Shown one piece after another: positions 12,706-47,272 of a stretch of 53,599 nucleotides of DNA. Under the pieces are notes generated by a model. That model ran no database searches and was not told where the DNA came from. It saw only the letters and a list, made by a program, of their open reading frames with translations. This DNA is from a virus, in IMG/VR virus record IMGVR_UViG_3300023119_000035, positions 1 through 53,599 of that record; one strand, written 5' to 3'. Every line of letters starts with the position of its first letter. Position 1 is the first letter of the stretch. The translations under genes and the position numbers were made by a program.

Positions 12706-13128
12706 CTATTCGCTAGTACTTGATGTATCAACGTGCATAACGCCTATTTTAGACGCTTGTAAGAAGTCTATTCCGTCATTACTGCGGTAATGCTCTCCAA
12801 AATAAACAGTTTTTATTCCACTTTGGTAAATCAATTTGGCACATTCAATACAAGGACTATGAGTAATAAACAGGTCAGCACCCAACCCACTCTCATTGCT
12901 ACGGGCCAATTTTGCAATAGCATTTGATTCCGCGTGTAATACTTCTGGTTTTGTTTTTCCATCTTCTTCACAGCAATTATCCCATCCACTTGGCATTCCG
13001 TTATATCCATATGCAATTATACGATCGTCCTTTACAACAATAGCACCAACTTGAAGTCTTTCTGCGTGTGATAATTGTGCAAAACGTTTTGCAACGTCCA
13101 TATATGCTTCTATAAATTTTTGTTTCAA
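12706..13128 (-). CDS. cd: dCMP deaminase
   Basis: This 140-aa zinc deaminase converts dCMP to dUMP, the substrate for thymidylate synthase. The zinc and catalytic motif is 'VLHAESNAIAKL' (His-Ala-Glu), and the second zinc motif is 'THSPCIECAKLI' (PCxxC). Length and motif spacing fit the phage and bacterial dCMP deaminase family. The start overlaps the stop of thyX (ATGA), so the pair is translationally coupled and makes dTMP together. It is the last gene of the leftward block. Function is well supported by motifs; the allosteric behaviour is unknown. Confidence 0.9.
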   Translation of the reverse strand: MKQKFIEAYMDVAKRFAQLSHAERLQVGAIVVKDDRIIAYGYNGMPSGWDNCCEEDGKTKPEVLHAESNAIAKLARSNESGLGADLFITHSPCIECAKLIYQSGIKTVYFGEHYRSNDGIDFLQASKIGVMHVDTSSTSE

Positions 13129-13802
13129 GTAAAATCCTTAGCCATAGGAAAGATCTTAGCAATGACTTCTGCACAAGCATGAGCAATTTCCATATGTTCT
13201 TTTTGTGTGCCATTGCCGCCGCGTAATTGAATATAGTGTACCCATGAACGCAATGTACCGTTCATATAAAGTCGCGTTTTAGTAAGTCCTTCTGGTAGAA
13301 CTGCTCTTGCTTGTTCTTTTGCAATACCATTTTCAATGGCCCAGTTGTATGCTTCTTTTGCCGCTTCAATAACTTTGTGTTGCTGTGATTCCCAGTCATT
13401 GATTAGATTCATTTCTTCTTGTGTAGTACCTAGTGCAACACTGTTTTGTCTGTTCTTTTGATCTTGTAATCGTGCGTCACGAAATACGAACATATCACCA
13501 AATTCATTTGGATTAGCATAACGCTGACTAAACTCTTGGAAACTAAACGAACGATGGCGCACAATTTGGTGTGCAATATCACGTGTAGTATTAATTTCTA
13601 AACAAGCATTAACCATTTCAAGTGGTGACCAATGTCCCCATTTAATTAGATAACCAATTAGTTTTTCTGCTGTTTCTTTATTATATTGGTTAGTAGGGTT
13701 TGAAACTCTTGCACAAAAAGCAATTAAGTCTTGTGCGTTTTCTAATCCTTCTTTTTCAAAATCTTCTGTTGGTTTACTGTACGATACTAATTTTACACTC
13801 AT
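13125..13802 (-). CDS. thyX: Flavin-dependent thymidylate synthase ThyX
   Basis: This 225-aa enzyme methylates dUMP to dTMP with methylene-tetrahydrofolate, using FAD and NADPH. The ThyX signature RHRxxSxxxxSxR is present as 'RHRSFSFQEFSQRY' at about residues 81-94. A substrate-binding 'EQARAVLPEGLTKTRLY' region and a C-terminal 'GGNGTQKEHMEIAHACAE' follow. T4 itself uses the unrelated Td/ThyA type, whereas ThyX is usual in marine phages. It overlaps the dCMP deaminase gene downstream. Together they supply thymidine for an AT-rich genome. Confidence 0.95.
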   Translation of the reverse strand: MSVKLVSYSKPTEDFEKEGLENAQDLIAFCARVSNPTNQYNKETAEKLIGYLIKWGHWSPLEMVNACLEINTTRDIAHQIVRHRSFSFQEFSQRYANPNEFGDMFVFRDARLQDQKNRQNSVALGTTQEEMNLINDWESQQHKVIEAAKEAYNWAIENGIAKEQARAVLPEGLTKTRLYMNGTLRSWVHYIQLRGGNGTQKEHMEIAHACAEVIAKIFPMAKDFT

Positions 13803-13805
13803 TTT

Positions 13806-14339
13806 TTATCCTAACGTTGTATTAAATGCTATTGATGTTTTTATCTCATCTTGATTATTTGGTTTTGATTGATGATGAATATGACCTGGAAACGTAATAA
13901 TATCTCCTTCATCGATACTTATCTCATATTCTTTATTTAAAAAACTAAAACTGGTTATAGGAGTTCCTTTAGGTAGATCAATAAAATAAACATTAGAAAA
14001 TGTACAATTACCGTGAGTATGTAAACCATGATAATCGCCTTTTGCATATCTTTGAAACCAAATTTGTGTAAGATGTAAGTTTTGTTGATCTTGAATATTA
14101 AGTTTTTGAAATAAGTTTCTATTGTAGTTTTCTAATATTGGACCAATTATATCAAAATAAGGTCTAGGCATTTCTCTAGGCATATACCAATCAGTATCAA
14201 GTAAACTTTGATTAACAGTTTCTAGTTTAAAACCGCCCATACTTTGAATAGCACTTAGTAAATCTGTTTTAATATCAGAGTGATTTAGTACTTTACTTTT
14301 AAAAATAACAAAGCCAGGAAACTCATGAACCTCAATCAT
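13806..14339 (-). CDS. 2OG-Fe(II) oxygenase-like protein, 177 aa
   Basis: The C-terminal half has the arrangement seen in the small '2OG-FeII_Oxy_5' type family: 'RYAKGDYHGLHTHGNC' with an H-x-H pair, then 'NVYFIDLP', then 'GDIITFPGHIHHQSKPN' with a distal His, and 'KTSIAFNT' at the end. The substrate is unknown. The gene lies 3 bp from thyX and overlaps the next upstream gene (ATGA), so it is part of the same leftward unit. The second metal ligand is His rather than the commoner Asp. Cupin-type non-oxygenase function is an alternative. Confidence 0.6.
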   Translation of the reverse strand: MIEVHEFPGFVIFKSKVLNHSDIKTDLLSAIQSMGGFKLETVNQSLLDTDWYMPREMPRPYFDIIGPILENYNRNLFQKLNIQDQQNLHLTQIWFQRYAKGDYHGLHTHGNCTFSNVYFIDLPKGTPITSFSFLNKEYEISIDEGDIITFPGHIHHQSKPNNQDEIKTSIAFNTTLG

Positions 14340-15618: not shown

Positions 15619-15898
15619 GAACTGAACAAGCCAAACTAAAATAAGACACTTCTGAAGCATCTTCAAACCCAATTTGGTAAACATTTTCCATTTTATTGTC
15701 TACCAAATACAGATCTTGAATAATAGCAAACCTTCCATTTAGGTTATTATATATCCAATCTCTAATATTATCAATAGTGTTAGTGTAATTCCATGATTCA
15801 ATTTTGAGACTTAACTTTTCAAAATGAATAGGCATAGTATCTAATTCTCTAATGTCTAAAACATTTAAAGGATTAGGATCCTGAACTAATAACCTCAT
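15590..15898 (-). CDS. Hypothetical protein, 102 aa
   Basis: I do not recognise this protein. It has mixed alpha/beta composition without signal or membrane segments. 'WIYNNLNGRFAIIQDLYLV' and 'YQIGFEDASEVSYFSLACS' suggest a small globular fold. Its start overlaps the stop of the metallopeptidase/VWA gene (ATGA), so it is probably made together with it. That position makes an accessory role in the MoxR-VWA unit possible but unproven. Confidence 0.55.
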   Translation of the reverse strand: MRLLVQDPNPLNVLDIRELDTMPIHFEKLSLKIESWNYTNTIDNIRDWIYNNLNGRFAIIQDLYLVDNKMENVYQIGFEDASEVSYFSLACSVLATDQVKIV

Positions 15899-17175
15899 GC
15901 CGCCTCTTTTAAATCATAGTGACAAGTAATACCGTGTGGTGCTTCAATTGATGTATCTGAATGAATAATCCATACAGTTTCACAATAGTTTTCATCACCC
16001 CAGTTCCACGAATAGCCATCTGTGAACACTAGGAGTTTTCTAGGAGTAATACCTTCGTCCTTCATAAAACGCCAGTTAGCATCAAAGTCTGTACCACCAC
16101 CGCCGTGTAATTCATACTCCTCAATGCTTTCGCCGCTGTCTGGAGTAAAGTCTTGTACATTATACACTTCTGTATCAAAACACCATACTTTAATTTTATA
16201 ATCGTCGTATTGATCACAAATGCCTTTTACTTCACTTAAAAAGTCTTGTGCTTCACGTGAACCAATTGAGCCTGACATATCAAGTGCAATACACAAGTCA
16301 ATAGTATCATCAAAGTCCATACCAGGCAATACTGCGGAAGTATGCCAACCTTTACGTGAAGGACGCATGAATGAATAGTTGCTCTTAATAGTAGATTGAA
16401 TCTGCTGATTAAGGATTTCTCGCCAGTTCATTTTAGGCTCGGTAAGTTCCTTAATAATACGTTGTACACCTTTAGGAATATTACCAACACCAGCCGCCTG
16501 TGCAGATGAAATCATTGCTTCTTTCATTTCATCACGGATTTTACGTAGTTCTTCTTTTGAGTATGTAGGTTGTCCGCCTTTACCTTTTTTCTTTTTAGTT
16601 TTACCGTTAGGACCTTGGCCTTTACCTTTTTCCCAATCAATATGTTCATCAAGAAGTTTACCTAGTTGATCAAGTTGTTCTTGATCGTACTTTTGGTAGA
16701 TGTCATCATACACAGCCTCTGATGCCCAACCATAATATTTAGGATCATGGAATGGTTTAACTTGTGTAATTACTTCACCAATCTTATGACGTACTAAATC
16801 ACCGTTAACACAATAGTCGGCGGCGATGTTATAAATTTGTGGTTCACGATCATCACGACGTGTAAAGTGATCATATACACAGTGTAGGATTTCGTGACCA
16901 AATAAGAACTCAGTTTGTTTTTGTGAAAGTGTTTCTACAAAGTTTTCGTTGTAGTAAAAATTACGACCATCAGTTGCCGCAGTTGCACACCAATCAGTTG
17001 CATCAATAATTTTAAGACGTGTAGCAAGATTACCAAAAAATGGTTGACGAATAAGTAGAGCAATACGAGCAGTTGTTAATTTTTCTAATACTTTTGCACT
17101 ATTGATAGAAGGATCTTTTTCATAGATCTTACCATCTATCATTGTTTGTTCTACTGCGGTTGTTTCTTGTGACAT
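15895..17175 (-). CDS. Metallopeptidase-like / VWA domain protein (MoxR partner)
   Basis: This 426-aa protein has two parts. The N-terminal half is a putative metallopeptidase domain with 'FLFGHEILHCVYDHF' (HExxH type, His at about 94 and 98), as in the DUF2201/PF13203 family. A Lys/Gly-rich linker near residues 185-205 follows. The C-terminal half is a VWA-like domain with the MIDAS motif 'ALDMSGSIGS' and a later 'GGGGTDFDANW'. Such proteins act with MoxR-type AAA+ ATPases, and one is encoded at 18725-19819. It has its own promoter and a strong AGGAG. The biochemical target is unknown; chaperone-like remodelling of a phage or host complex is the usual inference. Confidence 0.8.
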   Translation of the reverse strand: MSQETTAVEQTMIDGKIYEKDPSINSAKVLEKLTTARIALLIRQPFFGNLATRLKIIDATDWCATAATDGRNFYYNENFVETLSQKQTEFLFGHEILHCVYDHFTRRDDREPQIYNIAADYCVNGDLVRHKIGEVITQVKPFHDPKYYGWASEAVYDDIYQKYDQEQLDQLGKLLDEHIDWEKGKGQGPNGKTKKKKGKGGQPTYSKEELRKIRDEMKEAMISSAQAAGVGNIPKGVQRIIKELTEPKMNWREILNQQIQSTIKSNYSFMRPSRKGWHTSAVLPGMDFDDTIDLCIALDMSGSIGSREAQDFLSEVKGICDQYDDYKIKVWCFDTEVYNVQDFTPDSGESIEEYELHGGGGTDFDANWRFMKDEGITPRKLLVFTDGYSWNWGDENYCETVWIIHSDTSIEAPHGITCHYDLKEAA

Positions 17176-17231: not shown

Positions 17232-17807
17232 CTAGAATTTGGCTAAAAATTGGTTTTGCATATCCATTTTGGCTTGCAAATACGAGTAAGATTCTTCCAA
17301 TTCGAGTGGAGAATATTCCCCTGGCTTAAACACATATTCTACTGCTGAACTTGGAAGTTTTGAAGTTTTAAGACCATCTCCAGCATCAATTACATACGGA
17401 AGTAAGTCTGTTTTGGATATAATTGCTACTGCATCTTTATCGCAAATTAAAAGAAACTCTGCATATGATTCCGGAAGTGTTCGTCCTTCACTACTGCCAC
17501 GCGAGTTCATAAGTTGTAGTTCTGCAACGTGTTTTCTTGGTTGTTTCTTTTTAGAAGTAAAAAGACTACCATCAGTGTATTTCATTTCGATTGTAATACC
17601 GTTAGGTCCAATGTGATCAACACCTTCTTCATTTACATATCGTAAATCTTGATTACTAAAAAGTTCTAGTGCTTTTTCAAATAAATCACTTTTATCAAAA
17701 CGAAGTTTACGTTCATTTAGTTCGTCACCCACTTGGTCTACAAGTGTCACAAACTTATTCCAATCTACGTTCCATCTTAGCCAATGTGCTAGTTCTTTTG
17801 TATTCAT
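17232..17807 (-). CDS. Candidate PD-(D/E)XK nuclease, 191 aa
   Basis: The central segment 'GVDHIGPNGITIEMKYTDG' has the spacing of a PD-(D/E)XK active site: an Asp, about ten residues, then Glu-x-Lys at the end of a beta strand. This is typical of type II restriction enzymes and related nucleases. 'HVAELQLMNSRGSS' and 'EFLLICDKDAVAII' continue as the core strands. The gene overlaps the stop-side of the second nuclease-like gene upstream (ATGA, 4 bp) and lies directly before the VWA gene. No methyltransferase adjoins it. The family is not recognised beyond the motif, so the activity is a hypothesis. Confidence 0.5.
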   Translation of the reverse strand: MNTKELAHWLRWNVDWNKFVTLVDQVGDELNERKLRFDKSDLFEKALELFSNQDLRYVNEEGVDHIGPNGITIEMKYTDGSLFTSKKKQPRKHVAELQLMNSRGSSEGRTLPESYAEFLLICDKDAVAIISKTDLLPYVIDAGDGLKTSKLPSSAVEYVFKPGEYSPLELEESYSYLQAKMDMQNQFLAKF

Positions 17808-18622
17808 TTTTTAGAATTAATCCATTTAATTACTTGTTCGCTGTTCCCTGCGAAAATTCTATCTGAGTGTTCGGCAATCAAAGCATTCATTTCATCTAGA
17901 TGATTTTCTCCTGCTTCACCGTCTACTTGTACAAAGAACAATTTTTTATCATTGTGTTTATCACAGTATTTTTTTGACTCTTGAATAAAAGATTTTGATT
18001 CACCTACTTGATGTACAGAAGTCACAGATCCTTCTGGACCACTGTATTTTAAAAACCCATAAGCATCTAAACTAGGAATATATGCGTCTACACTTCTTGC
18101 AAACTTTTTGTTTTCAACATCTTTTTTATTTTGTATCTCACCGTTAGCAACAGTGTATTCACCGTTAACTGGTTTATCAACAGCAATACCTGTATACTTA
18201 CGAAGCATTTCTAACTGTACATCTTCGTCAATTGATTGTCTTGTTGCGTCTCGACAGTAGTCAATTTGAATCCACGGGTGAGAGTCTAAATATATTTGTG
18301 ACATTTTTTTGATGTCTGTAAACGTAATTTTATCTTCGTCACTAATACCTCTGTAAGAACAGTTCTTTGAAATACGTGAAAAGATAGTGTTCATAACATT
18401 AGTGACATTGCGTCTTGTTGGAGTATCAATTGTTTTATCTCGACACTTCCATTTAATTTCGTTTTTAGAATTACGGGTCTTTTCAACTGCTAGTTCATTT
18501 CCAGCAATTATTTCCCAAATTGATTTATCTTCTATTAGGTTAGATTGATTAGTTGCTTCACGACTTTTAATAATATTGTGAGCACCGTTTGTATTTTCGA
18601 TTATGATTTGTTTTGACACCAT
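17804..18622 (-). CDS. Candidate restriction-endonuclease-like protein, 272 aa
   Basis: The C-terminal third reads like a PD-(D/E)XK nuclease: 'FARSVDAYIPSLDAYG' supplies the Asp, 'SVHQVGESKSFIQESKK' supplies Glu-x-Lys, and 'LFFVQVDGEAGENHLDEM' is a following strand with acidic residues. 'LIAEHSDRIFAGNSEQVI' near the end resembles the close of some type II restriction enzymes. The N-terminal 150 residues are basic and could recognise DNA. It has its own promoter and overlaps the 191-aa nuclease candidate by 4 bp. No methylase gene is near. The assignment is motif-based only. Confidence 0.5.
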   Translation of the reverse strand: MVSKQIIIENTNGAHNIIKSREATNQSNLIEDKSIWEIIAGNELAVEKTRNSKNEIKWKCRDKTIDTPTRRNVTNVMNTIFSRISKNCSYRGISDEDKITFTDIKKMSQIYLDSHPWIQIDYCRDATRQSIDEDVQLEMLRKYTGIAVDKPVNGEYTVANGEIQNKKDVENKKFARSVDAYIPSLDAYGFLKYSGPEGSVTSVHQVGESKSFIQESKKYCDKHNDKKLFFVQVDGEAGENHLDEMNALIAEHSDRIFAGNSEQVIKWINSKK

Positions 18623-18698: not shown

Positions 18699-18718
18699 GG
18701 GGGATCCGAAGATCCCCC
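18699..18718 (-). terminator. Strong UUCG-hairpin terminator after the MoxR gene
   Basis: A perfect 8-bp stem (GGGGGATC / GATCCCCC) closes a TTCG tetraloop when read on the - strand, followed by ATTCTATTTT. It lies 7 bases after the MoxR stop codon. UUCG-capped GC stems of this kind are typical T4-type terminators. Confidence 0.85.
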
Positions 18719-18724
18719 TAGTAG

Positions 18725-19819
18725 TTAGGATGCCATTGCGGCTTGAACATACTTGCCGTATTTGTCATGAAAACGATCAAAGTTTTTAAGATCCTTTGGA
18801 CTGAATGGAAGTTTGTAAGTTGTAATTGCTACCCTTACACCCATCACAACAAGTTCAGTTTCAAAGTTATCCATCATAAATCCAAAGAAGTTATCTGCCA
18901 TAGCATTCCACCCTTTTTCTTTACGTTTGAACGCTTCTTGAAGTTCATAGCACATTGAAACAGTTAACGAGTACATAGCACTGATATCTGTAGTCTCCAT
19001 GCTTTTCACTTTACCGGACAAGATGTCCGTAGGATTTGGCAGTTTTGAAGCAACCTTACGGTGTGCCGCAAACTTTACTGCCAAGCCTTCACCAACGGCG
19101 CCTGCCACGAGGTCTGTCAACGTGTTTTCTGACAGGTCATCGTCGAGAAGTTCGCTCACGAAACTCCACGAACGTGGAGTAGCAAATGCACGTGAACTGC
19201 TCTTAGGATCAAAGTCATATAGATCCTGTTTTGCAAAAGAGCAATAACCAACTACATCTGCGTGAATTTTGTTTTCAGTTGCCCACTGCAACCAATCTTC
19301 AAAGTCTACTCGCATTTCTAAATGCAAGAAACGGTTAGCCAACGGAGCCGGCATACGATAAGTGACACCTTTATCAGTTTCACGATTACCTGCCGCTACA
19401 ATCATTACGTTGTCTGGAAGTTTATAAGTACCAACTCTACGATTAAGAACTAGTTGGTATGCCGCCGCCTGTACTGCCGGCGATGCAGAGTTCATTTCGT
19501 CCATAAACAGAACGATATGTTTAAACTGTTTTGCCATTTCTTCGTCTGGAAGTTCTACTGGCGGTGCCCATTTCATTGTATTATCATTGGCCGCGTAATA
19601 AGGCATACCTTTGATATCTGTTGGATCCCACAATGAAAGTCGAATATCAATTAGATGTGAATCTTCAAAACTGTTAGTAATTTGACTAACAATATCTGAT
19701 TTACCAATGCCTGGAGGACCCCATAAAAATACTGGACGGCCTTTAGCCATTGCGTGTTTAAGTGCCACTTTCGCTTCGTTTGGAGTGACTGTACGTGCTT
19801 CTGTTGCTTGTGTTGACAT
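18725..19819 (-). CDS. MoxR-family AAA+ ATPase
   Basis: This 364-aa ATPase has Walker A 'LWGPPGIGKSDI' near residue 35, a Walker B 'HIVLFMDEMNSASP' near 105, and sensor-1 'MIVAAGNRETDKG'. 'PAPLANRFLHLEM' supplies the arginine finger region. A C-terminal helical lid completes the MoxR layout. MoxR ATPases work with VWA-domain proteins as chaperone-like machines, and one is encoded at 15895-17175. The gene is monocistronic, with a consensus-like promoter and a UUCG terminator. It is called MoxR rather than the cyanophage CobS type because of the Walker A wording; the substrate is unknown. Confidence 0.85.
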   Translation of the reverse strand: MSTQATEARTVTPNEAKVALKHAMAKGRPVFLWGPPGIGKSDIVSQITNSFEDSHLIDIRLSLWDPTDIKGMPYYAANDNTMKWAPPVELPDEEMAKQFKHIVLFMDEMNSASPAVQAAAYQLVLNRRVGTYKLPDNVMIVAAGNRETDKGVTYRMPAPLANRFLHLEMRVDFEDWLQWATENKIHADVVGYCSFAKQDLYDFDPKSSSRAFATPRSWSFVSELLDDDLSENTLTDLVAGAVGEGLAVKFAAHRKVASKLPNPTDILSGKVKSMETTDISAMYSLTVSMCYELQEAFKRKEKGWNAMADNFFGFMMDNFETELVVMGVRVAITTYKLPFSPKDLKNFDRFHDKYGKYVQAAMAS

Positions 19820-44141: not shown

Positions 44142-46670
44142 TCACCATTTTCTACATGACCAATAACGTGCTTTATGCTTTGGACCTGGAGTATCGCAGT
44201 TGTGTCTAGCACGGAAACTTTTCCTTCTTGCTGGGTTTGATTTTTTAATCTTCATGTTAGGATCACCAAAGTTAACTTTAACTACATTACCTTTTGGATT
44301 CTTAACATATACTTTAAACTTCTTAACATCGCCACGCATTGGTTTGTTTAGTTTAACTGTGCGTCCTTGGTATTCTGCTTCTTCAATGTTTTCATCGTTT
44401 TCGCCAATCCAACCAAACGCTTCATAAAATTCATCACCGTGTAATGTGACATCTGTTAAATCGTTAAACCAAATATCTTCTTCTACTTGTTCAATTGATT
44501 CTTTTACTTTTTTCTTTTTCTTTGCTGGGTGGCTGTGTTCTACAACAACACACTCTTTCATGTTCGCTACTGGAATATTTCTAACAATAAATTGTGATCC
44601 GTCTTCACGTACAAATTTAGCATCGTAGTGTGTGACTGTTCCGTCTTCACTTAATGTGTGTTCGCCATGAATAACTTCACCTTCACCAAACTTATCATGT
44701 TTAAATGATTTAGTGCAAGGATGATAAATGTTATCACCTTCGTTTTGAATACTCTCTAATTCAAGATCTTTAAATAGTTTTTTTGCTTCATCACTATTTG
44801 GATCAAGTTTTTTTGATTTAAAACGTTTTTCAGCCTGTGCAACCATATCTGGATCACCCTTACGTGTTTCCCCGCCTTGTGCATCTTTTGCATAAACACC
44901 TGATTTAGGTGCAGAAGCATCAGTTGGTTTAAACATTGCTGAATCGTCACCGCTAGGTGTGTAAGGTTTAATTTCTACAGGCTTAGGATCTTTAGAAACT
45001 ACTTTTTCTCTAGTACCTGAAATCATTTCCCAACCATTGCTATGATGGCTGTTTTCAAATTTATCTAATTCTTCATCAGTAGCATAAATTGTATACTCTT
45101 TACCTTGATAACTCCATTGAGTTTTGTTCTTGTTTTTATCAATGTTAAAATTTACAGTGCCACCATTTGACTGAATACGTCTTTCACCACCAAACGGAAG
45201 TTTACCATTTGCAGGTTTTTGTTCAGGCTTTTTTCCAAATAACTTTTTTAGAAAGTCAAACTCTGTTAGATTTTCACTTTCATACATACCTTGTAATTGT
45301 ACATCAGGCATTTGATTCACTTTTGGTTTACTTGATTGTGTTGAAGAAGATGATTGCGATTGTTCAGCATCTTTTGCTAAACCAATATCACCTTTGTATC
45401 TTGTTTGGCCAGTCATACCATCTTTACCAAATGTACCTGCTTTGCCGCCCATGATGTTTACTGCTTTTTCTTCTGCTTCTTCTTTTTCAAGATCTGCTAG
45501 TTTAGCCGCGTGTGCTTTACTTTGTAATGCCTTTTCAATTTCATCGTTGTTAGCAAGATCTTGTAATGCTCTCTTGCCTCTAAAGCCAGCCGCCGCAATC
45601 ATAACTTGAATGTCTACACCTGAGTTAACCATTCTTGTCATATCTTCAAATGCTTGAGCATCACCACGGTATGCTCTGTTAACAGTTAGAATTGCTTCAT
45701 ATGCTTCTTTCTGGTCACGCATTGGAATTGCTTGAATCTGTAATGCTAACATTTTTAATTCATGATTGATATTTCTAATGTCGCCTGCTTGTTTCCATTC
45801 AGCAAAACTTACATCTTTAAGTGCTTCACTTCTATCAGTATAGAAGTTTCCGTCATCACTCTTACTCCAATGTTTATATTGATCGAGTGCTACCCAACGG
45901 CTACCTACTTTTCTGTGTGTTCCTACATACTCGCCTGATCCTTGATCATAATTTGCTGGATTTCCTTGGAAGTCAGCATCAAAGTCTTTTCCGTATGAGT
46001 ATGCTGGTAAACCAAATCCCATGTCTTTTAATCTGTCAGCCATGTATCTGTCACGGACTGAACCTGTCCAAATAGGACGACCATCAACAGCCATAGGAAC
46101 ATAACCTTTAGTACCATTTGCATATTCAATTGCTTGATACATTCCGCCGCCACGTTTCTTTGGCTCTTCATCCCAAAGGATTTTAAATTCTTCTTCTAGA
46201 TTTTGTTCTTCAATTGCCTTAGCAATATTACTGTGTGATTGTGATTCAAATTCATCATCGTCAGAGTCATCATATGGAACTTCTGAATCTGGATCTTTTT
46301 CTAATGGAATATCTTTATGTCTTTCCATCGCCGCTTGTACAACTTTAACTAAGCCTGGACCAATTTGCTTGTCATTGTGTATCATGTTGCTAACGTTGGA
46401 TAAAAACAACGAAAGGTCGTCGTTATTTTTAATTAGTTGTGATAGTTCTGATAGTTTGTACGCAATTTCTGCTTTAGCATCTGTAAATTTTTGAATATTA
46501 GCACTGCTGTATTTGATCTGTGATTTGCTTGGTTCAGCAAATACAGCGTCTTGCAAATCAGCAATTACTTCTGATGCTGTCTTATATTGTTTGCGTTTAA
46601 CTTCTTTTTTGGCTTCTGTTTGAACGCCATCAATTTTGTTTATTAATTTTCTAAAGTCCATAGTGTCCAT
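44142..46670 (-). CDS. Large multi-part virion/internal protein, 842 aa
   Basis: This long, hydrophilic protein has low-complexity linkers (Ser/Gln at about 430-450). Recognisable pieces are 'YGKDFDADFQGNPANYDQGS', 'EFDFLKKLFGKKPEQKPANG', a small repeat 'DKFGEGEVIHGEHTLSEDG', and a C-terminal module 'GRTVKLNKPMRGDVKKFKVY', 'KVNFGDPNMKIKKSNPARR', 'RARHNCDTPGPKHKARYWSC' which I have seen at the ends of diverse marine phage proteins. The N-terminus ('DFRKLINKIDGVQTEAKKE') is helical and charged. A late promoter lies 20 bases upstream. Location in the virion is inferred. Confidence 0.65.
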   Translation of the reverse strand: MDTMDFRKLINKIDGVQTEAKKEVKRKQYKTASEVIADLQDAVFAEPSKSQIKYSSANIQKFTDAKAEIAYKLSELSQLIKNNDDLSLFLSNVSNMIHNDKQIGPGLVKVVQAAMERHKDIPLEKDPDSEVPYDDSDDDEFESQSHSNIAKAIEEQNLEEEFKILWDEEPKKRGGGMYQAIEYANGTKGYVPMAVDGRPIWTGSVRDRYMADRLKDMGFGLPAYSYGKDFDADFQGNPANYDQGSGEYVGTHRKVGSRWVALDQYKHWSKSDDGNFYTDRSEALKDVSFAEWKQAGDIRNINHELKMLALQIQAIPMRDQKEAYEAILTVNRAYRGDAQAFEDMTRMVNSGVDIQVMIAAAGFRGKRALQDLANNDEIEKALQSKAHAAKLADLEKEEAEEKAVNIMGGKAGTFGKDGMTGQTRYKGDIGLAKDAEQSQSSSSTQSSKPKVNQMPDVQLQGMYESENLTEFDFLKKLFGKKPEQKPANGKLPFGGERRIQSNGGTVNFNIDKNKNKTQWSYQGKEYTIYATDEELDKFENSHHSNGWEMISGTREKVVSKDPKPVEIKPYTPSGDDSAMFKPTDASAPKSGVYAKDAQGGETRKGDPDMVAQAEKRFKSKKLDPNSDEAKKLFKDLELESIQNEGDNIYHPCTKSFKHDKFGEGEVIHGEHTLSEDGTVTHYDAKFVREDGSQFIVRNIPVANMKECVVVEHSHPAKKKKKVKESIEQVEEDIWFNDLTDVTLHGDEFYEAFGWIGENDENIEEAEYQGRTVKLNKPMRGDVKKFKVYVKNPKGNVVKVNFGDPNMKIKKSNPARRKSFRARHNCDTPGPKHKARYWSCRKW

Positions 46671-46691
46671 ATTATAATACTCCTACTGAAG

Positions 46692-46699
46692 TATTTATG
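46692..46699 (-). promoter_or_regulatory. T4-type late promoter (CATAAATA)
   Basis: CATAAATA, read leftwards, matches NATAAATA and lies 22 bases before the start at 46670, followed by a TAGGAG ribosome site. It would drive the late block down to 39004. Confidence 0.6.
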
Positions 46700-46708
46700 C
46701 AAGAGGAC

Positions 46709-46945
46709 TTATCTTCGAAAGGGTTTGATTTCTGTGATTTCTGGTGTGTTTGCTGTGAATTCTAATCCAGCCATGTGACCTACATATAGGTCTTTATTTT
46801 TGTACGATAAACGCACTTTTACGGTGTTTATAATAACATCTATGTACATTTTCTCTACATAGCGATCTAAGTATGCTTGTACTGTTTGACCATTATCTGT
46901 ACAATTAACTTCTATTTTTTCAGGTAGGTGTTGATTATTTTGCAT
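46709..46945 (-). CDS. Conserved small protein, 78 aa
   Basis: A short beta-rich protein ('VNCTDNGQTVQAYLDRYVEK', 'DVIINTVKVRLSYKNKDLYV', 'LEFTANTPEITEIKPF'). No family is recognised. It stands alone between a terminator on its 5' side and the late promoter on its 3' side. Strong GGATC lies 6 bases before the ATG. Confidence 0.5.
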   Translation of the reverse strand: MQNNQHLPEKIEVNCTDNGQTVQAYLDRYVEKMYIDVIINTVKVRLSYKNKDLYVGHMAGLEFTANTPEITEIKPFRR

Positions 46946-46967
46946 ATTGATCCTTTATAAAGCAGTA

Positions 46968-46987
46968 AAGGCCCCCGAAGGGGCCTT
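46968..46987 (-). terminator. Strong UUCG-hairpin terminator after the winged-helix gene
   Basis: A perfect 8-bp GC-rich stem (AAGGCCCC / GGGGCCTT) with TTCG loop on the - strand, 15 bases after the stop of the gene at 47003. The following sequence is only moderately T-rich. Confidence 0.8.
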
Positions 46988-47002
46988 ATACCTCAAGTTT
47001 AA

Positions 47003-47272
47003 TTAAGCAACTAGGCCTTTTGCCATTGCTTTATAACCAGCCGCGATAACCGCTCTGCTAGCCGTACCTAAACGGTACTTCTTGTAAACTCTACCTTTGC
47101 TATCTTTAACAGTGTTAAGATATACTGGGAAACCGTTGAAACGTAGTGCTTGAATTACTGCACCTGGGTTTCCTGCACCAAATCTTGATTTGATTTGAGC
47201 CGCAGTTAGTTCATTACCATTTTGTAATGAAGCAAGTACTTTAGCCTGGATAGTTTTTGAATTGTTAGTCAT
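47003..47272 (-). CDS. Small winged-helix-like protein, 89 aa
   Basis: The start is the ATG at 47272, with TAGGAG six bases upstream; an ATG six codons earlier lies before the ribosome site. 'KVLASLQNGNELTAAQIKSR' followed by 'GAVIQALRFNGFPVYLN' and 'GRVYKKYRLG' reads as a helix-turn-helix with a beta wing, like small phage regulators. It is monocistronic, with its own promoter, a leader hairpin and a strong terminator, unlike its neighbours. That layout suits an abundant regulator or DNA-binding protein. Target unknown. Confidence 0.65.
   Translation of the reverse strand: MTNNSKTIQAKVLASLQNGNELTAAQIKSRFGAGNPGAVIQALRFNGFPVYLNTVKDSKGRVYKKYRLGTASRAVIAAGYKAMAKGLVA

Follow-up and report, generated by a model that had tools for sequence, protein, structure and literature searches.

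How could a phage carry sequence-specific nucleases and no methyltransferase, and still spare its own genome? The question is raised by two adjacent genes in a 53.6-kb viral fragment (the window, that is, the whole stretch of DNA analysed, 53,599 nucleotides). A restriction enzyme is generally held to require one of three things: a partner methylase, a modified genome, or special regulation. N191 (17232-17807, minus strand) encodes a predicted PvuII/NhoI-like PD-(D/E)XK nuclease of 191 aa with AGCT as its predicted target, an assignment drawn from fold, conservation, AGCT association, and dN/dS. N272 (17804-18622, minus strand) encodes a 272-aa candidate BstEII-like nuclease with GTWAC as its predicted target, based on GTWAC association and a weak BstEII match. 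Both ORFs lie exactly where an earlier note on this DNA had placed them, joined by a 4-bp ATGA stop/start overlap (17804-17807, minus strand), and the common promoter proposed there is found as a strong sigma-70-like sequence match just upstream of the two-gene unit (TTGACA-17-TAAAAT, 11/12; 18678-18650, minus strand). A UUCG hairpin (18699-18718, minus strand), the intrinsic terminator of the upstream AAA ATPase gene (18725-19819, minus strand) and present in relatives too, separates the pair from that gene, which borders a variable slot. The conserved downstream neighbour encodes a DUF2201/VWA protein (15895-17175, minus strand). Further downstream, the same gene block holds a flavin-dependent thymidylate synthase, ThyX (13125-13802, minus strand), and a 2OG-Fe(II) oxygenase (13806-14339, minus strand).

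The phage carrying the pair is a marine T4-like phage. The window is contained, at 99.97% identity, in positions 128272-181867 of a 181,867-bp record (IMGVR_UViG_3300017818_000007, hereafter G002), which served as a near-complete genome for testing the claims on methylase and words. GTWAC, AGCT, and GCWGC, singled out as missing in the earlier note, are absent from the window (0 against 97.9, 120, and 50 expected, respectively) and from the whole 182-kb record, with hundreds expected under two null models: 336, 422, and 179 under a maximal-order Markov model, and 344 ± 13, 156 ± 6, and 492 ± 18 for GTWAC, GCWGC, and AGCT, respectively, under synonymous-codon shuffling in 143 genes. The control words GTAC and GATC occur normally in G002. 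A scan of all 4- to 7-base words found RCATGY and several GCGC/CGCG contexts likewise absent. Elsewhere, other words are wholly missing: CATG in G003 (0/145 expected), GCGC in G004 (0/121), and CTAG in G038 (0/517). These three absences, with those of RCATGY and GCWGC in G002, may mark further methylase-free nucleases.

The absence of a methylase is borne out within the window and beyond it. No member of the DNA methyltransferase families PF02086, PF05869, PF01555, and PF00145 was detected in the window or G002, controls being detected, and no plausible (D/N/S)PP(Y/F/W) methyltransferase motif occurs in the G002 ORFs of at least 90 aa. A hidden methyltransferase in the 182 kb was rejected on these grounds.

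The earlier note had read D...E-x-K signatures in both proteins, and the strings it pointed to, GITIEMKYTDG in N191 and HQVGESKSF in N272, are present. For N191 the reading stands. Scanning viral contigs yielded dozens of relatives, and D64-x9-E74-x-K76 does not vary among 31 homologues with identities as low as 32%, so the motif is not a chance occurrence. The codons of these predicted catalytic residues are at 17616-17618 (D64, on a predicted strand), 17586-17588 (E74), and 17580-17582 (K76), all on the minus strand. For N272 the ESK is a mere string, with no homologues in which to follow it. Structure prediction divides the pair in the same way: an AF2 model of N191 from the 31-sequence alignment reaches a pLDDT of 90.4 and has a nuclease fold, and the single-sequence model of N272 (pLDDT 36) is unusable. 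Searching the N191 model against the PDB with Foldseek gave NhoI, the Eco15I N-domain, PvuII, and NaeI as best matches, and the best 21 matches are all PD-(D/E)XK restriction enzymes (E 0.011-0.16, probability ≤0.95), with TM-scores mostly of 0.3-0.44. On this model the fold family of N191 is clear but not close to known structures. By predicted fold and motif, N191 belongs with the PD-(D/E)XK nucleases; the fold is well supported for N191 only, not for N272. Purifying selection acts on the N191 gene (dN/dS 0.04-0.15).

Direct sequence searches returned little. The 31-sequence N191 profile has no match among all PDB sequences at E up to 10 and none in Pfam, and neither full-length protein matches a PDB sequence. 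Against Pfam, PHROGs, NCBIfam, and PADLOC, N191 and N272 gave nothing beyond sub-threshold chance hits, and no match to HNH, GIY-YIG, or LAGLIDADG families. The short recognition sites, of the Type II kind, are deduced solely from absent words and their association with genes.

AGCT is absent from 26/26 distinct loci of the main N191 family, which occur in two synteny backgrounds; the carriers are related, and their loci are not independent observations. A wider count of 29 carriers adds three of a distant clade, L027 (29 AGCT), L086 (1), and L087 (1). Control phages were gathered via the neighbouring AAA gene, giving 49 distinct loci without N191 that cover the stretch from AAA to VWA; these hold 1413 AGCT against 1866 expected, and the word is kept in 48/49 and absent from one. 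Other phages have N191 at its second location, next to a DNA ligase gene. In the ligase tree, carriers form two separate clades, both AGCT-free, and most of their relatives keep AGCT. GCWGC was tried as the N191 target and rejected: it is absent from three relatives that lack N191 and keep AGCT (L216, L222, and L229), and the distant carrier G015 has 32 GCWGC against 25 expected, with 2 AGCT against 91. GCWGC thus separates from N191 both ways, which leaves AGCT as the likely target of N191, judged from sequence comparison. The earlier note had offered all three words as candidate targets; AGCT can be assigned to N191 and GTWAC to N272, but GCWGC to neither.

The association holds in one direction. 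G038 (156 kb) has no detectable N191 and no AGCT (0/517 expected); G039, G043, G044, and G045 resemble it, with AGCT near zero and no detectable N191, and G046 has 1/146. From these exceptions it follows that N191 implies the absence of AGCT but the converse fails, and that something else can also remove the word. The candidate explanations are other AGCT nucleases, N191 in missing parts of these genomes, or a contribution from host restriction. In neighbours of the carrier clade of G010 (L236, L238, L239, L240, and L307), the ligase loci contain little AGCT or none, as would fit an order in which the word was lost first and the nuclease gained afterwards.

N272 has a much narrower distribution. 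It is present only in one phage species (G000, G001, G002, and a short contig), and no relative outside that species was found in viral contigs, phages, plasmids, or 84,980 genomes. GTWAC is at zero in the carriers, and 135 distinct loci without N272 hold 3443 against 3566 expected. Among 136 distinct loci, it is absent only from the N272 species and one other, a 27-kb fragment of another phage (L244/G053; 0/56) with no N272-like gene within the fragment. The fate of individual sites is informative. Per relative, GTWAC occurs at 114-239 aligned sites, at most one of which reads as kept in G002, the others being mostly GTCAC, GTGAC, or other one-base variants; in the same alignments, GTAC and GATC are kept at 26-49%. 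GTSAC is correspondingly enriched in G002 (317 vs 184). The escape to GTCAC and GTGAC and the enrichment of GTSAC indicate selection against GTWAC, not GTNAC.

Across 54-182 kb of G002, the part that relatives cover, there are four unique ORFs of at least 90 aa, with N272 the sole nuclease candidate; other G002-specific genes in this part were rejected as a source of the GTWAC loss, none of the unique ORFs but N272 being nuclease-like. In the poorly covered part, a 117-aa HNH-like ORF (G002 46665-47018) remains a candidate source. The link between N272 and GTWAC, read from these comparisons, comes from a single lineage.

The C-terminal part of N272 has BstEII as its sole PDB match (phmmer E 0.22 to 0.45, weak); a longer piece additionally matches a designed repeat protein, via repeats. 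We compared N272 with the full BstEII sequence, taken from Geobacillus plasmid pBSO1, where the enzyme adjoins its methyltransferase. The Smith-Waterman score of 62 is reached by 7/8000 shuffles (Gumbel p ~6e-4) and tops 1410 phage ORFs, the next scoring 57; hhalign gives P 0.016. The aligned region comprises N272 residues 186-246 (17885-18067, minus strand) and BstEII residues ~195-254, and at phmmer E 0.22 the resemblance, taken alone, is weak. BstEII recognises GGTNACC (PMC9283502). GTWAC had been named before the BstEII match was known, which makes a chance coincidence less likely. The ESK of N272 aligns with GGN in BstEII and so may not be a catalytic motif.

The N272 slot, between the AAA gene and N191, is variable, and relatives hold HNH, GIY-YIG-like, or other genes there, or nothing. 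It is an insertion hotspot whose contents include HNH (PF01844), GIY-YIG-like, DGQHR-like, and unknown genes; examples are L009 3709-4957, L013 3469-4955, L052 5320-5931, and L062 5327-5944. The slot HNH gene was considered as a nuclease with an erased word of its own and rejected, no absent word accompanying it.

Distant N191 homologues show the family in another setting. L087 (264-896) holds an intact homologue, of 32% identity and with the D...VEMK retained, whose gene overlaps that of a D12 adenine methyltransferase; the cognate methyltransferase of Type II restriction-modification is found at this locus, and none in the window or G002. In two diverged lineages, L027 (5001-5559) and L029 (4935-5550), two consecutive adenine methyltransferase genes, one of the D12 and one of the phage Dam class, lie downstream of the homologue, whose frame is broken between the catalytic D and the ExK with both halves still conserved. 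The break is apparently a deletion between short direct repeats (ATGAA-type); a programmed frameshift in this clade was rejected in its favour because L087 is intact. These methylase-linked homologues tie the N191 family to classical restriction-modification, with the group to which the window belongs as the methylase-free branch.

A parallel exists in a cultured cyanophage. The viral protein closest to N191 in structure, SSM1_072 from Synechococcus phage S-SM1 (E 9e-9, TM 0.63), has the same D-x9-E-x-K and no adjoining methyltransferase. The S-SM1 genome (GU071094) contains no GTAC (0/636 expected). The related Syn19 (GU071106) has 278 GTAC and a gene annotated R.RsaI that overlaps one for a methyltransferase. 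A search of the phage collection for further S-SM1-type nucleases found only S-SM1 itself. CCGG is absent from both genomes (0 of ~310 expected each), and GTAC from S-SM1 only.

We propose, with a probability of roughly two in three, that N191 and N272 are methylase-free sequence-specific nucleases that attack the DNA of hosts or rivals, the phage protecting itself through erasure of the sites. Both would be restriction-type double-strand DNA endonucleases working without a methyltransferase, N191 as a PvuII/NhoI-like PD-(D/E)XK enzyme that probably cuts AGCT and N272 as a probably BstEII-like enzyme that would cut GTWAC. The phage itself would be immune, selection having cleared its genome of all AGCT and GTWAC. 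After infection, the enzymes would cut any DNA bearing the words, including the host chromosome (as a nucleotide source), plasmids, prophages, and competing phages. Probably a word became rare at the outset, for example through host restriction or an earlier nuclease; a phage could then gain the nuclease for that word without self-killing, and the nuclease, once acquired, would hold the word at zero. The genes, the lack of a methylase and of sites, the N191 fold, the gene-word association, and the mutation of GTWAC to escape forms are established observations; from them we infer cleavage, exact specificity, biological target, and evolutionary order, and all the support is correlational. The core idea, a methylase-free phage restriction system, was put forward in the earlier note and is supported independently by the fold, by comparative site counts, and by the fate of individual sites, tempered by a nuclease fold for N191 only and by the AGCT-free phages without N191. 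A literature search, thin in its coverage of subscription journals, found no prior description of such a system.

The main rival holds that host restriction of AGCT, GTWAC, and GCWGC drove the loss of the words, the two genes being otherwise employed or co-inherited. Phages are well known to lose sites when hosts restrict them (reviewed in PMC12707154), and this account accommodates the AGCT-free phages that lack N191 (G038 and G043-G046, with 1/146 in G046), the GTWAC-free G053 that lacks N272, and the additional absence of GCWGC, RCATGY, and CTAG in various members. It fails to predict, however, that AGCT absence tracks N191 (26/26 carriers vs 1/49 AAA-VWA relatives), that N272 carriers lack GTWAC and every close relative has it at normal frequency, or that fold and sequence neighbours recognise sites containing those very words. 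We regard it as possible, if unlikely, as the full explanation; host-driven avoidance may nonetheless have come first in time, and host restriction may have contributed to the loss of AGCT, because several phages are AGCT-free without N191.

N272, and perhaps N191, might instead be a homing or mobile endonuclease of the free-standing type, recognising a long target and inserted at a hotspot, the missing words being unrelated. The changing contents of the AAA-N191 slot suit such an element, as does the slot HNH gene with no associated missing word. N191, however, is not mobile in the slot but conserved, under purifying selection, and present at two loci, neither protein matches HNH, GIY-YIG, or LAGLIDADG families, and the loss of GTWAC follows N272, with escape by single-base changes; we consider this origin quite improbable. 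A remnant of a restriction-modification system, with the methyltransferase lost and the nucleases either inactive or protected through some DNA modification so far unrecognised, would recall the distant N191 clade, in which a D12 methyltransferase lies directly downstream and two lineages have a broken nuclease frame. Yet N191 in the window is intact, purifying selection acts on it, and a genome with zero sites needs no modification; we consider a remnant highly improbable.

If methylase-free cutting with site erasure is the correct reading of this locus, it would represent a third solution to self-protection, in which a phage can keep its restriction enzymes because hundreds of sites have been erased. 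Complete word absence in phage genomes would be explained without invoking the host, enzyme specificities would be readable from sequence alone, and rules would be set for which phages can recombine or co-infect. With two small proteins, the idea is directly testable. Whether it extends further seems to us an even question: these T4-like marine phages may carry a modular set of restriction nucleases without methylases, each matched by the total loss of its short word from the phage genome, the words being AGCT, GTWAC, GCWGC, RCATGY, CATG, GCGC, and CTAG in different members and GTAC in S-SM1. Nuclease specificities could then be predicted from lists of absent words, and the words that a phage lineage tolerates would set it apart from others.

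PvuII has a D-x9-E-x-K spacing, and AGCT is the core of its site, CAGCTG. It shares the PD-(D/E)XK fold with N191, as do the BisI-family enzymes NhoI and Eco15I (modified GCNGC), and all three are among the top PDB matches of N191. PvuII is itself the closest canonical relative of NhoI and Eco15I (PMC11347163). N191 has no detectable sequence similarity to the three (~12% identity in structural alignment) and, unlike them, is a phage gene without a linked methyltransferase and with a predicted four-base site. BstEII, whose site contains GTNAC, resembles N272 weakly over residues 186-246 but adjoins a methyltransferase on its Geobacillus plasmid, whereas N272 has none and a predicted site of GTWAC; homology between them is unproven. 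SSM1_072 is like N191 in structure, D-x9-E-x-K, the lack of an adjacent methyltransferase, and an absent word, but the word is GTAC, not AGCT. The R.RsaI-like gene of Syn19 differs from N191 in overlapping a methyltransferase gene, with GTAC present in the genome.

Among broader systems, Type II restriction-modification, including that of chlorella viruses, shares with the pair a restriction-type specific nuclease (predicted here), but the pair has no methyltransferase and its proposed protection is the absence of sites. Chlorella virus restriction enzymes are thought to degrade host DNA. DenA and DenB of T4 also degrade host DNA, T4 being protected by modified cytosine, and homing endonucleases spare their own genome by single altered long sites. 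Both provide examples of T4-like phages cutting foreign DNA while sparing their own; in contrast to either, the protection proposed here is the genome-wide loss of a short word.
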